The translations under genes were made by a program, and so were the position numbers. Of a stretch of 52,424 bases of DNA, positions 813-7,097 are shown one piece after another; the stretch's first letter is position 1, and every line of letters starts with the position of its first letter. The stretch is from Bacillota bacterium (GTDB lineage: Bacteria > Bacillota > Sulfobacillia > Sulfobacillales > Sulfobacillaceae): contig JAKBWA010000111.1 in assembly GCA_021841025.1 (NCBI GenBank), positions 1-52,424 of the forward strand. Reading direction: 5' to 3'. The notes under the pieces were generated by a model. It was not told the origin of the DNA and made no database searches. It saw only the letters and a list, made by a program, of their open reading frames with translations.

Positions 813-1640
813 CTAACCTTTGACGCTACCCGCCGTGAGCCCCGATTCGATCCGTTGCTGCAAAAAGAGGACAATCAAGGCAATGGGCAATGATGCCACG
901 ACCACCCCTGCGTAAATTTGCCCATAATGCACGTAATACGCATTGCGGAAATTCACCAAAGCCAATGGCACGGTGTCCATATTGGGACTTTGAATGAAAG
1001 ATAAGGCGAACAAAAAATCATTCCACGACAGCAAAAACCCCAAAATCGCAGCGGTGAAGATCCCCGGCAAAGCTATGGGAGCAAACACCTTGAGTATCGT
1101 CTGGCGAATCGTTGCCCCGTCGACCATGGCGGCTTCTTCAATGTCTTGCGGGATCTGGCCGAAGAATGCCGTTAAAATCCAGGTGGTTATGGGCAACGCC
1201 AGAATCAGATATGGGATGATCAAACTCTGGTAAGTGTTCAGCCACTGCAAGTGGCGAAAGACCAAATACAAGGGGCCCACCATGGCGATTTGCGGAAAAA
1301 ATGACACGAGAAGCACAAAACCGAGAATAGCAGCTTTCCCTTTGATGGGCATCCGGGCTAAACCATAAGCGGCCATCGATCCCAAAATCACCGAAATAAT
1401 GGTCGTGACCCCTGCCACGAACATACTGTTAAGCAAAGGACGCAGGAAATTTTCTACGGCAAATATGGCTTGATAATGAACCAACGTCCACTGCACCGGA
1501 AGCATGCCCGTAGTGGGCTGGTTTAGCGAAATACTGGATTCCATGGAAGATTTGAACACCCAGTAAAAAGGAAACAGTGAGTACAGAATGATAATCACCA
1601 CAAGGGCGTAAAAGCCGCTTTGTCCAAACCACCTTCTCAT
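813..1640 (-). CDS. Carbohydrate ABC transporter permease, MalG type
   Basis: This is an inner-membrane channel subunit of a sugar importer. The 275-residue protein has about six hydrophobic segments, the first at residues 10-30. The cytoplasmic EAA loop that docks on the ATPase is clear at about 168-190 (EEAAMVDGA followed by the conserved G and P). The short N-terminus and C-terminal QQRIESGLTAGSVKG tail are characteristic of MalG-like partners (the LxxGLTxGxVKG ending is common). Its ATG overlaps the stop of the MalF-type gene by four bases (ATGA), so the two are translationally coupled. No ATPase gene lies in the window; families of this kind usually share an MsmK/UgpC-type ATPase encoded elsewhere. 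Confidence 0.93.
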   Translation of the reverse strand: MRRWFGQSGFYALVVIIILYSLFPFYWVFKSSMESSISLNQPTTGMLPVQWTLVHYQAIFAVENFLRPLLNSMFVAGVTTIISVILGSMAAYGLARMPIKGKAAILGFVLLVSFFPQIAMVGPLYLVFRHLQWLNTYQSLIIPYLILALPITTWILTAFFGQIPQDIEEAAMVDGATIRQTILKVFAPIALPGIFTAAILGFLLSWNDFLFALSFIQSPNMDTVPLALVNFRNAYYVHYGQIYAGVVVASLPIALIVLFLQQRIESGLTAGSVKG

Positions 1641-2584
1641 GTCACGAATCCCTCCCGTTGCCGCAGGATGCGGACATAAATTGCCGCGAGCAACAGCGCC
1701 AGGATAGTAATGACAACCGCAACCGCAGCACCATAGCCAAAATTCAGGGAAACCATGTATTTGTACCAGTTATAGTAGGCAATGACTTCTGTGCTCCGCC
1801 CCGGTCCTCCGCCCGTCATAACAAAGATGGTGTCGAATACCAGCATCGCGCTTAAGGTCCGGAAAATCAAAGCCACGAGGATTGCTGGACGCAAGAGCGG
1901 AAGAGTTAAGGACCAAAAAGATTGCCATGCTGAGGCACCGTCAATTTTGGCGCTTTCATAAATTTCTTGAGGAATGGTCTGAAGACCGGCTAAAAGGAGT
2001 AACGCGATAAAGGGGGTGTTTTTCCACATGTCGCTCAAAATAATCGGCACCCACGCCAAAATCGGCGAATTAAACCAAACCGCCTGTGCCCCCGGCAAAT
2101 GCAAAGATTTCAGGGCAAAATCCACAAATCCGGAACGTATATCAAAGAACATTTTCCATAACAATGCCGATACGGCTGTGGGAATGGCCCAAGGGATAAG
2201 AATGGAAGCCCTGACCAATCCCCGGGCCCGAAACTTGCGGTTAACCACCAAGGCGAGAATCATACCAGCCACGAATTCCAATGTCACCGAAATCACGACA
2301 AATATTCCCGTGTGCAGCAAATCTCCCCAAAACGCCGGATCTGTCATCAAACTATGATAGTTTTGCAGTCCGACAAAATGCTGCGTGCCTGGTTCTGTCG
2401 CCACGTCAAATCGTGACGACAGAACCAGATTATATATCAACGGGTAAATGGCCACCAGGGCCAAGGCGATAATCGCGGGCATGACCAATAGATACCCCAC
2501 TCGTCTGCGCCTGGCCAAATACGATGCGCCAGGACGCCTTTGCGTCAGCTGATCGGGGGATTTGGTCGCCAGTTTAGCCGCCAT
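1637..2584 (-). CDS. Carbohydrate ABC transporter permease, MalF/UgpA type
   Basis: The 315-residue membrane protein is the second permease of the importer. It begins with a basic cytoplasmic stretch ending in RRRR near residue 28, then a hydrophobic segment at about 30-55. The EAA loop is at about 210-236 (ESAKIDGAS, then conserved leucines and prolines). The periplasmic LGLQNY-like motif after the first segment (VGLQNYHSL, about 71-79) is typical of MalF/UgpA subunits. It overlaps the end of the binding-protein gene by 11 bases and the MalG-type gene by four, which supports a three-gene operon in the order binding protein, MalF, MalG. Confidence 0.93.
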   Translation of the reverse strand: MAAKLATKSPDQLTQRRPGASYLARRRRVGYLLVMPAIIALALVAIYPLIYNLVLSSRFDVATEPGTQHFVGLQNYHSLMTDPAFWGDLLHTGIFVVISVTLEFVAGMILALVVNRKFRARGLVRASILIPWAIPTAVSALLWKMFFDIRSGFVDFALKSLHLPGAQAVWFNSPILAWVPIILSDMWKNTPFIALLLLAGLQTIPQEIYESAKIDGASAWQSFWSLTLPLLRPAILVALIFRTLSAMLVFDTIFVMTGGGPGRSTEVIAYYNWYKYMVSLNFGYGAAVAVVITILALLLAAIYVRILRQREGFVT

Positions 2585-3848
2585 GGCCGCTCACAATGGC
2601 CTGGACCGCTTTTTGGGCTTGATCCAATGCCTGCTTAGGTGTTAATTGACCAGAATAGGTCGCGGACAATGCCTCCTGGATCCGGGCCGATATTCTGGGG
2701 TATAACGGGGTAACCGGGCGTGGAGTGGCATCGGCGTAAACTGCCTCCTCTTGTTTAAACCAAGGAGCCTTTTTCAGCAATGAAGGGGTATAAGCGTCAG
2801 TCCGAGCTGGCGGATCTCCTGATATTAAGGCGCGTTGCGTCATTGTCTTGGCCGAAGTCAGGAATTTTACCAACTCCCAAGCCTGTTTAGGATATTTGGT
2901 ATTCTTGTTAATCACCAAATCGTCGCCACCCAAAGACGCTGTGGGCTTGCCGCCCTGAACGGGAGTCGGTACAAATCCCACCTGATTAGCCACTTTAGAC
3001 CCTTTTTGTTCTGCCAGAGGATATAAATAAGGCCAGTTAGTGGCAAATACTGCCCCTCCTGATAAAAAGGCCTGTTGCACATTGCCTTCTTCCCATCCTG
3101 TGACCGCTTTGGGAGACAATCCTGATTTAATGGCGTTATCCAGCCATGTCAGTGCCCGAATATTTTGGGGGGAGTTTAAAACGGGTTGCCCCTTGGAATT
3201 CAAAAACGATCCTCCAAATCCTCCTGACACGTCTTGAAACACGGTCACAGCCCCTTCATATTTGTTGCCCTCAAATGCCAGCCCAATCAGTTTAGGGTTT
3301 TTCGCCATGGCTGCCCTGGCATCAGCAGCCAACTGGGTAAATGTACGAGGGGGTGTTTTAACCAAGTTTGTGCGGTAATATAAGCCTTCCACGTTAATAA
3401 ACCAGGGAATGGCATAGAGTTTTCCTTGATACTCTCCCGCTTTAACCATCCCTGGATAAAATTTGCTCATATTAGGATGAAATTGATTCAATGGCATGAT
3501 CCACTTGGCCGCAGCAAATGTTGGCGGCCAAATGACGTCCGATGTAATCACATCGGGTGTGGCCGATCCGGAATTTAAGTCTGTCACAAGGGTTTGATAA
3601 GCGCTATTGGATGACGCCGATAGTGTCTCAATCTGAACATGGATATGCGGGTGCAATTTTTCAAATTCTTTGACAGCTTGTGCTGTGGCTTGAGCTTCGG
3701 TGCCAAGACCTTGGGTCGCAAACACCAATTTGACCGTTTTAGACCCGGACGCCTGGGTGCTGCTTCCACACCCCGCCAACGCTGCCGTCAAAAACACGGC
3801 ACTAAAAACTCCCACCGTGCCTCGCTTTACGCGTGTATTGTTTACCAT
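2574..3848 (-). CDS. Extracellular sugar-binding lipoprotein (ABC importer)
   Basis: This 424-residue solute-binding protein captures sugar outside the membrane and hands it to the two permeases. It has a positively charged start, a hydrophobic stretch and a lipobox (LAGC, about residues 23-26), so it is a lipid-anchored protein after SPase II cleavage. Family 1 features include the LVFATQGLGTEAQ strand, the DVITSDVIWPP segment and GGDDLVINKNTKYPKQAWELV near the C-terminal third. I moved the start to the ATG at 3848 because AGGAGG lies 7 bases before it; the longer frame to 3887 has no such site. The substrate is not visible in the sequence; the divergent debranching-type fusion suggests an alpha-glucan or maltooligosaccharide. 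Confidence 0.92.
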   Translation of the reverse strand: MVNNTRVKRGTVGVFSAVFLTAALAGCGSSTQASGSKTVKLVFATQGLGTEAQATAQAVKEFEKLHPHIHVQIETLSASSNSAYQTLVTDLNSGSATPDVITSDVIWPPTFAAAKWIMPLNQFHPNMSKFYPGMVKAGEYQGKLYAIPWFINVEGLYYRTNLVKTPPRTFTQLAADARAAMAKNPKLIGLAFEGNKYEGAVTVFQDVSGGFGGSFLNSKGQPVLNSPQNIRALTWLDNAIKSGLSPKAVTGWEEGNVQQAFLSGGAVFATNWPYLYPLAEQKGSKVANQVGFVPTPVQGGKPTASLGGDDLVINKNTKYPKQAWELVKFLTSAKTMTQRALISGDPPARTDAYTPSLLKKAPWFKQEEAVYADATPRPVTPLYPRISARIQEALSATYSGQLTPKQALDQAQKAVQAIVSGHGG

Positions 3849-4034
3849 ACTGTTCCTCCTACCTTTGTGGTGTAGCCTTTGACCCACGAATATTTTTTGT
3901 TTTCAGTAATTTCTGGTCTCTACAATCCGTTTTGTGTAATTAATGTTTTGCGAATTTCCCGTATTGTGTCATACTTTGAGATATAATTCAATCGTTTCAC
4001 TGAAACGTTTCAATTTTTTTGATGGAGGGCGTCT
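3849..4034. promoter_or_regulatory. Divergent promoter region with LacI-type operator
   Basis: Between the transporter operon and the regulator-enzyme gene lies a palindromic cluster. TGAAACGTTTCA at 4001-4012 is a perfect 12-bp palindrome with a central CG, the usual core of LacI/GalR-family operators. CGTTTCA-C-TGAAACG at 3993-4007 is a second, overlapping palindrome. A TATAAT box at 3982-3987 sits immediately upstream, so a bound repressor would cover the start of transcription of the fusion gene and could also act on the divergent operon. No convincing -35 box was seen. GGAGGG precedes the ATG at 4035. Autoregulation is inferred. Confidence 0.7.
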
Positions 4035-7000
4035 ATGTCGCAAAATTTTCGCCGTGCACGTATTGGCGATGTGGCTAAGTTAGCCGGGGTGTCTGCATCC
4101 ACCGTGTCATATATTCTGAATAACCGGGGAAATTTTTCCGCTGAGACGGTCAGTAGAGTCCATGAGGCCGCCAGGACTCTAAACTATTCGCCCAACGCCC
4201 AGGGCCGAATATTGGTAAAGGGAGTCTCTGAAACCATTGGCATTCTTCTTCCTCCATTTCGCACAGAAGAACATTCACCCGGTATCTTTCTCGGCTTGAT
4301 GCCAGGACTGATTACTGCCTGCCAGGAAAACAATTATCATGTCATCGTGTTGGTCGGATCCAGCACCCAATATTTACAGCAGGTCGTATTGTCCAGACGA
4401 GTAGACGGTCTGATTTTGCTGCATGATCCTGATCTGGCCCAACACCGGGAAATTCTACATCAATATCACATTCCGTTTGTGGTGTTTGGCAATCCCCGCA
4501 GTGATGATTTGTCATATGATGCTGATTTGGAAGAAGCCGCCCGCATGGCTACCCAGTATCTTATTGACCTCGGTCACCGCCACATTGCCTTTATGCCTTC
4601 GAATTCTCTGCCTTGGCAAACGGAACGATACCAGGCAGCCTTTGAAAGAACGATGCGTCAATATCACCTGACCCCCACGGTTCTTGGCCACGCGCCGCCC
4701 GAAGACAGCCACAACGAGCGCCATGCAAGAGAATATCACGGAGCGTATGATGCCTTAACCCAGCTTAACCCTCCCACCGCCGTTTTGGTAACCACCCTTC
4801 GAGGCGCCCAGGAAGTCATCCACTTGGCGGAGAATCTCGGCATGCACGTGCCCAGACGGTTGTCAGTGATGAGTCTTGAGCCGATGTGGGCGCCTCAGGA
4901 CACTCATCTGGCTCTCTCTACAGTGGAAATCAACCTCAGTGAAGCTGGCTACCAATTGGCCAGGACGCTTATTACCCTTATTCACGGGAAACCTGTCACA
5001 AGCCAACGCGTCATCCCTTCACTCAATATTCGCCAGTCCACCGGTATCCCGGCCGTATTCCAGACTCCGAGCACAGACATTAGCGAGCCCGTTCTCAAGT
5101 CGGGTCCGGTTTTTGCCCTCTTTTCCACTCAAGGTCACGTAGAAGTCCATTCCAAGCGACAGGGGATTTATAGTTTTGATACACGCCTGTTATCGGTCTA
5201 TCAATGGCGAATAGAAAATGAAGTGCTAGATCCTGTGGGATTCGAAGTGCAAGACAATACCCTGTTCCTGCGGTATGTGGCTGTCCAAGAGGGAGCAAGT
5301 TTGGTACTTAGACGCCACCTTACGCTTTATGACGATCATTTGGACGATCAGTGGGAATGGGAATACTATGGACCATCTTCGTCCTGGACTTTATCTGTCG
5401 CGATGGATGCCGATTTTATCGACATTTTCGAACTGCGGGGCACTCCCAAAACAGGCGAAGGCCAGAAATCGAAATTCTTCCAGGATGATCACTATGTCAT
5501 CGAATACGCAGGGGCCGATGGCATAACCCGCCAGGTCTCTATGCAAGCCAATCCCACCCCCTATCATACCCAAGAAGGCAAATGGCAATGGCGTTTTCAT
5601 GCCTCCGACAAACAGGGACAGCTTAACGTGGGCATTCACTGGGTCAATCCGGTGAAGATTGCACCCTCTCATTCCTTCGGAGCATCTCACAGCCCCTTAT
5701 CCCCGGCATCCTCGTCCCCAAACTTTGATTTCCATGACTACCCGTGGAGTCAAATTATTCGTCAAGCGCATCAGGACTATCACCGGCTTCTCACCGACTT
5801 TGGTCAGGGGGTGGTTCCTATGGCTGGCATTCCCTGGTTTGCCACTTTTTTCGGACGCGACGCCATCATCGCCTCTTATGAATACTTGCTGTGGGATCCG
5901 AGCGTGGCCATGAACACTTTATATACCCTGGCACAGTGGCAAGGACAACAAGAAGACCCAGCACGCGAAGAAGAGATCGGAAAAATGGTTCACGAAATCC
6001 GCTTTGGAGAAATGGCGCAAAGTGGGCAAGTACCCTTTTCTCGGTACTACGGCTCGGTCGATGTCACACCGCTTTTCTTGATTCTGTTGCTGGAAACCTG
6101 GCGTCGCACCGGTGATGATCAACTCATAGACGATTTATGGCCTCATGCCGAGAAAGCTTTAGCATGGCTTTTGAAAGCACAAGATCCTGCCACGGGATTA
6201 TTTTCTTTTCAAAATCATGGAGACCAGGGGTTAATCATCCAATCTTGGAAGGATTCGTTTGACTCGATGGTTTACGGCAGTGGTGAACATGCCAGGCCTC
6301 CTTTAGCAGTCAGCGAAGTGCAAGGCTATGCCTACCGGGCTTTAGATCTCTGTGAGCAATATTACCGGTACAAAGGCGCTATGGACAAAGCGCAGGAACT
6401 CCATAAACGAGCGGCTACTCTCAAACGCCAGTTTAACAAGCTTTATTGGATCGAGTCCGGATCTTATTACGCACTGGCCCTAGATTCTTCACTTCGTCCT
6501 CTTGATGTCTTGACATCGGACACCGGACAATGCCTTTGGAGTGGTATCGTCCAATCCTCACGCGTTCCCGCTTTGACTCACACCATCATGACGCCTGAGT
6601 TGTTTTCTGGGTGGGGAATCCGGACCCTGTCCCATGACGCCCTCACTTATGACCCCTACAGCTATCATCGCGGCAGTATCTGGCCTCACGATACCGCGTT
6701 AATCGCCAAAGGGCTGGCGCAATCGGGCATGTGGAAAGAGTCGCGAGTTGTGGCCCGGAGTCTTTTTGAAGCTGCTTCCCATTTCTCTTTTTATCGGTTG
6801 CCGGAATTGTTTTCCGGTGAACCTTCGACGTCGCCCCCCTCTCCTTATAAAGGTGCCTGCAGCCCCCAGGCTTGGGCCGCAGGATCCCCATTATTGCTTC
6901 TTCAGGTCATGTTAGGAATGGAGATTGACGCCAAGCGCCGCCTTATTACCCTTCGCCCTGAACGCCCTTGGCCTATGGGTTCTTTTGCCATTCACAATAT

Positions 7001-7097
7001 TCCTCTGACCCAGGGCGATGTCATCACCCTGCGGTTTCAGTCCAGAGGAATTGTCATTGAAAAGGTGCCGAATCATTGGAAGGTGAAAAGAAGCTAA
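4035..7097 (+). CDS. LacI-family repressor fused to amylo-alpha-1,6-glucosidase-like enzyme
   Basis: One uninterrupted 1020-residue frame holds two complete proteins. Residues 8-60 are a LacI helix-turn-helix with hinge (IGDVAKLAGVSASTVSYILN), and about 65-342 form a periplasmic-binding-like sugar sensor of normal LacI length. Residues about 356-545 match the N-terminal beta domain of bacterial debranching-type enzymes (GDE_N_bis), with the hallmark GIYSFDTRLLS at 377-387. Residues about 565-1000 are an (alpha/alpha)6 catalytic domain with IPWFATFFGRDAII at 599-612 and YHRGSIWPHD at 877-886, the usual catalytic-site motifs. The gene is divergent from a sugar importer and has a LacI-type operator before its start. 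The substrate is not certain: the family includes amylo-1,6-glucosidases and related alpha-glycosidases. I see no ribosome binding site at the domain junction near 5097. Confidence 0.93.
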   Translation: MSQNFRRARIGDVAKLAGVSASTVSYILNNRGNFSAETVSRVHEAARTLNYSPNAQGRILVKGVSETIGILLPPFRTEEHSPGIFLGLMPGLITACQENNYHVIVLVGSSTQYLQQVVLSRRVDGLILLHDPDLAQHREILHQYHIPFVVFGNPRSDDLSYDADLEEAARMATQYLIDLGHRHIAFMPSNSLPWQTERYQAAFERTMRQYHLTPTVLGHAPPEDSHNERHAREYHGAYDALTQLNPPTAVLVTTLRGAQEVIHLAENLGMHVPRRLSVMSLEPMWAPQDTHLALSTVEINLSEAGYQLARTLITLIHGKPVTSQRVIPSLNIRQSTGIPAVFQTPSTDISEPVLKSGPVFALFSTQGHVEVHSKRQGIYSFDTRLLSVYQWRIENEVLDPVGFEVQDNTLFLRYVAVQEGASLVLRRHLTLYDDHLDDQWEWEYYGPSSSWTLSVAMDADFIDIFELRGTPKTGEGQKSKFFQDDHYVIEYAGADGITRQVSMQANPTPYHTQEGKWQWRFHASDKQGQLNVGIHWVNPVKIAPSHSFGASHSPLSPASSSPNFDFHDYPWSQIIRQAHQDYHRLLTDFGQGVVPMAGIPWFATFFGRDAIIASYEYLLWDPSVAMNTLYTLAQWQGQQEDPAREEEIGKMVHEIRFGEMAQSGQVPFSRYYGSVDVTPLFLILLLETWRRTGDDQLIDDLWPHAEKALAWLLKAQDPATGLFSFQNHGDQGLIIQSWKDSFDSMVYGSGEHARPPLAVSEVQGYAYRALDLCEQYYRYKGAMDKAQELHKRAATLKRQFNKLYWIESGSYYALALDSSLRPLDVLTSDTGQCLWSGIVQSSRVPALTHTIMTPELFSGWGIRTLSHDALTYDPYSYHRGSIWPHDTALIAKGLAQSGMWKESRVVARSLFEAASHFSFYRLPELFSGEPSTSPPSPYKGACSPQAWAAGSPLLLLQVMLGMEIDAKRRLITLRPERPWPMGSFAIHNIPLTQGDVITLRFQSRGIVIEKVPNHWKVKRS

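Follow-up and report, generated by a model that had tools for sequence, protein, structure and literature searches.

On the forward strand of the window (i.e., the whole 52,424-nt stretch of DNA that was analysed), one open frame joins a LacI-type repressor to a glucosidase-type enzyme (Table 1). The initial annotation had read this frame as a LacI helix-turn-helix (HTH), a sugar-binding domain and a debranching-type enzyme in a single protein, which the domain searches bore out with all Pfam matches above their curated cut-offs. Specifically, the LacI HTH was matched at residues 10–54 (2e-16; PF00356, 59.8 bits vs. a cut-off of 27), and the sugar-binding core follows directly (Peripla_BP_3 at residues 174–336, 4e-25; PF13377, 89.2 bits vs. 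26.5, and PF00532, 33.8 vs. 22.2). Both enzyme domains were matched behind it, i.e., GDE_N_bis at residues 354–522 (1e-24; PF14742, 87.5 bits vs. 22.1), MGH1-like_GH at residues 618–913 (2e-15; PF22422, 57.8 vs. 27) and GDE_C at residues 671–950 (3e-10; PF06202, 40.2 vs. 21). The two enzyme motifs named earlier lie where they had been placed (FGRD at residues 606–609 and HRGSIWPHD at 878–886), and both the LacI-type palindromes just upstream of the start and the divergent sugar importer, comprising a binding protein and two permeases, were likewise recovered.

Table 1. Coordinates of the features at the fusion locus, with the basis of each assignment.
Feature	Position	Strand	Basis or remark
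ABC sugar permease	813..1640	-	Pfam
ABC sugar permease	1637..2584	-	Pfam
ABC sugar-binding protein, divergent	2574..3887	-	Pfam; partner of most fusions
TATAAT hexamer immediately before operator 1; probable -10 box for the fusion gene	3982..3987	+	
Operator 1, imperfect palindrome TCAATCGTTTCA	3988..3999	.	
Operator 2, palindrome TGAAACGTTTCA	4001..4012	.	Ends 22 bases before the ATG
GGAGG ribosome-binding site	4024..4028	+	Sequence
Fusion gene, LacI repressor plus glucosidase-type enzyme	4035..7097	+	1020 codons, no stop; orthologues
LacI HTH, residues 8–54	4056..4196	+	Pfam, fusion comparison
LacI effector-binding/dimerisation core, residues 62–340	4218..5054	+	
Linker, short and variable, residues 341–353	5055..5093	+	
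GDE_N_bis N-terminal beta domain of the enzyme, residues 354–522	5094..5600	+	Pfam
Catalytic (alpha/alpha)6-type domain, residues 576–960	5760..6914	+	
Asp740 in WKDS, candidate general acid	6252..6254	+	Inferred by analogy with CgGDE Asp1241
Glu924 in RLPELFSG, candidate general base	6804..6806	+	Inferred by analogy with CgGDE Glu1492

With the whole protein as query, relatives gave alignments that span repressor and enzyme in a single frame; the identities were 79, 73, 71 (contig-truncated), 60, 60, 47 and 47%, followed by values of 37–42%. The fusion is intact or contig-cut in 18 of the 42 genomes (species) of the order, with two fusion genes each in G003, G007, G010 and G019, and three species in other families of the class carry it as well (complete in G136, cut by contig ends in G135 and G106). 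In total it has been kept over about 20 species at 36–79% identity, and the same frame is also found in genomes of one to three contigs (G003, G004). Since this continuous frame recurs in independent genomes, an assembly artefact can be ruled out (the support being orthologues rather than reads), and an assembly chimera, a frame error or a second product made from an internal start are hardly credible accounts of the locus. An internal start was rejected as the source of a separate enzyme because the window gene lacks ATG, GTG and TTG throughout codons 320–380, and the other fusions show scattered candidates with neither a conserved position nor a ribosome-binding site at the junction. The initial annotation had pointed to such a start, or to a stop or frameshift between the halves, as the signs to look for; no conserved start was seen, and the halves are joined without interruption in the window and in the independent genomes, but in the related genome G005, the 19th of the order to carry the gene, the frame is broken within the LacI half. 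This split, which is what speaks for a frame error, leaves the enzyme frame open; in this finished genome the gene (L049, 7598–10617) consists of two overlapping frames near LacI residues 251–263, and a sequencing error, decay or a real split may be the cause.

Outside the class, about 1,180 genomes from other classes and phyla were sampled; these samples gave the enzyme alone and no full-length alignment, although a fusion whose LacI half is very divergent may have escaped, as scoring was restricted to the best few candidates of each genome. The even samples covered the window's phylum (398 genomes, including at least 16 of its own class) and the phyla of a Nocardioides MAG (396), a Truepera MAG (111) and a 'Deltaproteobacteria' MAG (297). 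No plasmid record covered 80% of the fusion query in one place. Long frames elsewhere were considered as further fusions, and the opened loci (L103, L104, L115–L128) carried no LacI in the enzyme frame, while others (e.g., G1172) were left out. A 952-codon frame in G056 (L076, 7696–10554) ends in a complete LacI protein preceded by 620 codons without a Pfam match, and is probably a run-on frame in GC-rich DNA.

Purifying selection acts on both halves. In six resolvable close-orthologue pairs, dN/dS was 0.03–0.20 for the HTH, 0.05–0.19 for the LacI core and 0.11–0.14 for the enzyme half (Nei–Gojobori; synonymous distances were high in some pairs and a seventh pair was saturated). Within the HTH, T23, V24, S25 and Y26 were invariant among the 20 fusions compared. 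That the fusion is fixed and under selection is well supported, and an enzyme and a DNA-binding domain are thereby found in one selected polypeptide.

The enzyme half aligned as a profile over nearly its whole length with the amylo-alpha-1,6-glucosidase of Thermococcus gammatolerans (7vma; E 3e-150), which also ranked first in a Foldseek search with a predicted model of the fusion. This AlphaFold model of the whole protein (eight sequences, pLDDT 58, pTM 0.49) is poor and served the fold search rather than any reading of domain contacts. The T. gammatolerans enzyme acts on maltodextrin by cutting its alpha-1,6 bonds (PMC9142091). Like 7vma and bacterial GDE_N_bis/MGH1-like enzymes, the fusion combines an N-terminal beta domain with an (alpha/alpha)6-type catalytic domain and shares the motifs FGRD, WKDS, HRGS/HNGS.WPHD and LPEL.G, whereas the GDE_N_bis/MGH1-like enzymes found are standalone and mostly about 600–760 residues long. 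All 20 full-length fusions compared retain FGRD, WKDS, SYHRGS.WPHD, LPELF.G and PQAW. Asp740 and Glu924, invariant in the same 20 and in standalone enzymes of this type, are proposed as the acid/base pair by analogy with Asp1241 and Glu1492 of CgGDE, mutation of which abolishes the glucosidase step (PMC4837477), the residues having been matched by reasoning rather than aligned by a tool.

Importer genes adjoin most fusions. Moreover, five fusions have glucodextranase-like GH15 genes as neighbours and a further three have GH15/trehalase-like genes, the latter type also standing beside three of the five unfused loci of the order; this neighbourhood suggests alpha-glucans as the sugars concerned. 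Because other glycosidases share the cluster in some relatives, the fusion enzyme may not be the main glycosidase.

The two operators lie 13 bp apart (centre to centre) and directly follow the TATAAT hexamer, at which ATAATTCAATCG is conserved in close orthologues; no full sigma-70 match was found for the fusion-gene promoter. Operators were scored with the pattern TNAANCGNTTNA, allowing at most one mismatch in eight positions for a single site and at most three in sixteen for a 13-bp pair. A CG-centred palindromic, LacI-type operator was found near the start of 22 of the 23 fusion genes and the 13-bp-spaced pair at 16 of them, vs. 10% (single site) and 0 of 460 (pair) in shuffled upstream regions, figures that describe rather than test the footprint because the pattern was chosen after seeing the same sequences. 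Elsewhere in the 5–52 kb loci the perfect single site hardly occurs, and the window's genome holds the perfect pair just once. The sole exception among the 23 is a separately placed fusion (L079) with no operator match near its start; at L056, L057 and L060 the listed ORF begins a few bases ahead of the site, the real start codon probably being the next GTG. Local autoregulation by the fusion, as predicted from these sites, is supported by the operator footprint. Upstream of the TATAAT hexamer, a block with TATTGTGTCATAC / AGTATTATGGCAT (window 3961–3981) is conserved among close fusion loci, also at those with a divergent importer, and is possibly a divergent promoter or activator site.

In Sulfobacillus relatives and other Bacillota, the same two proteins are encoded by separate genes in the same order, with the LacI gene 0–179 bp before the enzyme gene (ten loci, i.e., L061–L064, L066, L085, L103, L105, L106 and L113). 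A sharper operator pattern, CnAAAACGTTTTnG, is matched perfectly ahead of the LacI gene (or at its annotated start) in seven of the ten, an eighth having one mismatch, and perfectly ahead of the enzyme gene in six; operators precede both genes in five loci (one with a mismatch). Because the unfused LacI gene lies just upstream, usually with operators beside the genes, repressor and enzyme would have formed a regulatory pair before merging, and since operators stand before the enzyme gene it was probably already a target of its LacI. The unfused pairs differ from the fusion in their operator core (CnAAAACGTTTTnG vs. TnAAnCGnTTnA) and in having mostly single sites. The HTH of fused LacIs reads ATVSY, TTVSY or STVSY and accompanies TnAAnCGnTTnA operators, that of unfused LacIs reads TTVSR or TTVSH with AAAACGTTTT, and operator and recognition helix seem, by this sequence comparison, to have changed together. 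At L085 (G143, 3474–6905), a single stop codon separates the LacI and enzyme frames, and the true enzyme start probably lies further on because two operator-like palindromes follow the stop. At L103 (G412), two identical CCGAAACGTTTCGG palindromes lie 51 bp apart between the unfused LacI and enzyme genes (between 5869 and 5972).

The fused proteins of the order form one clade with that of G106 in both the enzyme tree (a clade of 22 rows, SH-aLRT 99) and the LacI tree (a clade of 23 rows, SH-aLRT 100). The enzyme tree groups the G136/G135 fusion with the unfused gene of G132 (98), and holding all fused enzymes together was disfavoured at an AU p of 0.03, a marginal value from a quick tree, the group having been picked after inspection of that tree. 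For the LacI tree, a second origin is not needed. The enzyme tree weakly suggests that the fusion happened twice; two independent fusion events are possible, as is a single event followed by a split.

The single frame, its conservation, the selection on both halves, the retained active site and the operator footprint can all be read directly from the sequence. They are consistent with a bifunctional repressor–enzyme whose enzyme half lowers the inducer, so that induction of its own gene and of the importer ends itself, a reading that we hold at a probability of roughly 50%. The fusion would sit as a LacI-type dimer, or a pair of dimers, on the tandem operator (3988–4012) over its own promoter start, repressing its own gene and probably the divergent importer. 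The sugar brought in by the importer, most likely a short alpha-1,6-containing gluco-oligosaccharide, or a derivative of it, would bind the LacI core and free the DNA, upon which importer and fusion would rise together. Hydrolysis of the imported sugar by the enzyme half would then let the inducer fall, while the same rise would supply more repressor. DNA binding, catalysis and the identity of the sugar are here predictions, and inducer and substrate are presumed to be the same or in direct exchange. That the enzyme destroys the inducer, as the initial annotation had proposed, is a plausible prediction from the presence of repressor and glycosidase in one protein; with the join conserved in about twenty species, the switch may be able to break down its own inducing sugar. 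Speaking against this reading, ordinary repressors are produced at low and catabolic enzymes at high levels, so that a single polypeptide compromises both roles; the additional glycosidases in some clusters, the broken frame of G005 and the lack of an operator match at L079 also count against it. A bolder extension, which we regard as speculative and rather doubtful, is that this self-ending switch arose twice, with the tandem operator evolved for the larger assembly and catalysis on the promoter setting the on-time.

Among the alternatives, the one to be taken most seriously, tentative as it is, holds that adjacent genes under the same regulator merged merely for co-expression, the halves working independently at a fixed 1:1 ratio. 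The adjacency of the unfused genes in relatives (0–179 bp) and the short, variable linker fit this account, and loss of a stop codon would be a simple route to it, but the fusion has been kept across an order, the enzyme tree favours two origins, and a tandem operator pair occurs in most of the main fused clade vs. single sites in unfused relatives. The same anatomy would also fit an enzyme that makes the inducer, by hydrolysis or transglycosylation of the imported sugar, and thus turns the fusion into a positive-feedback sensor. Beta-galactosidase makes allolactose, local production at the repressor would be a natural reason for physical linkage, and the other glycosidases in some clusters could take care of bulk catabolism. 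Nevertheless, GH15/GH63-type enzymes, to which the enzyme half is related, work by inversion, which disfavours transglycosylation, and we regard this option as unlikely.

We consider it very unlikely that the enzyme half acts only as a carbohydrate sensor or oligomerisation module without turnover. Some transcription factors do derive from enzymes, as described for the BzdR subfamily (PMC3602430). Yet the active-site motifs are retained in 20 of 20 full-length fusions, and dN/dS of the enzyme half is similar to that of the LacI half.

As a repressor, the fusion resembles LacI/GalR proteins (CcpA, PurR, LacI) in its HTH, hinge leucine, periplasmic-binding-like core and palindromic operator with a central CG, and differs from them in about 675 extra residues forming the enzyme, in Tyr26 (Arg in the classical repressors) and, across most of the main clade, in operators that come as tandem pairs with 13-bp spacing. 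Sugar repressors and inducer-consuming enzymes are textbook partners, as separate proteins. Trigger enzymes such as PutA, BirA and NadR do unite a DNA-binding domain with a metabolic enzyme in one polypeptide that controls its own locus, as the fusion is predicted to do from its sequence, but here it is a complete ligand-binding LacI repressor that is joined to a glycoside hydrolase. We know of no described case of this combination, and no published description was found in the open-licence literature; as far as the open papers searched go, the initial annotation was therefore right that no such protein had been described, whereas the architecture itself turned out to be common within one bacterial order. 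The joined form has been kept across this order of (Sulfobacillus-like) acidophiles while relatives still carry the two genes unmerged. Nature has thus set up a comparison that could show whether physical coupling of sensing to consumption changes the dynamics of gene induction, and the fusion is a possible part for synthetic pulse-generating switches.

Finally, four fusion clusters contain another, distantly related MGH1-like glycosidase of 734–749 aa (L046, 14713–16917; L050, 16034–18256; L058, 3677–5926; L059, 1015–3243). These were considered as second copies of the enzyme and rejected upon alignment, which revealed a distinct family with WWFGCD or WWFACD instead of FGRD and with neither WKDS nor LPEL.
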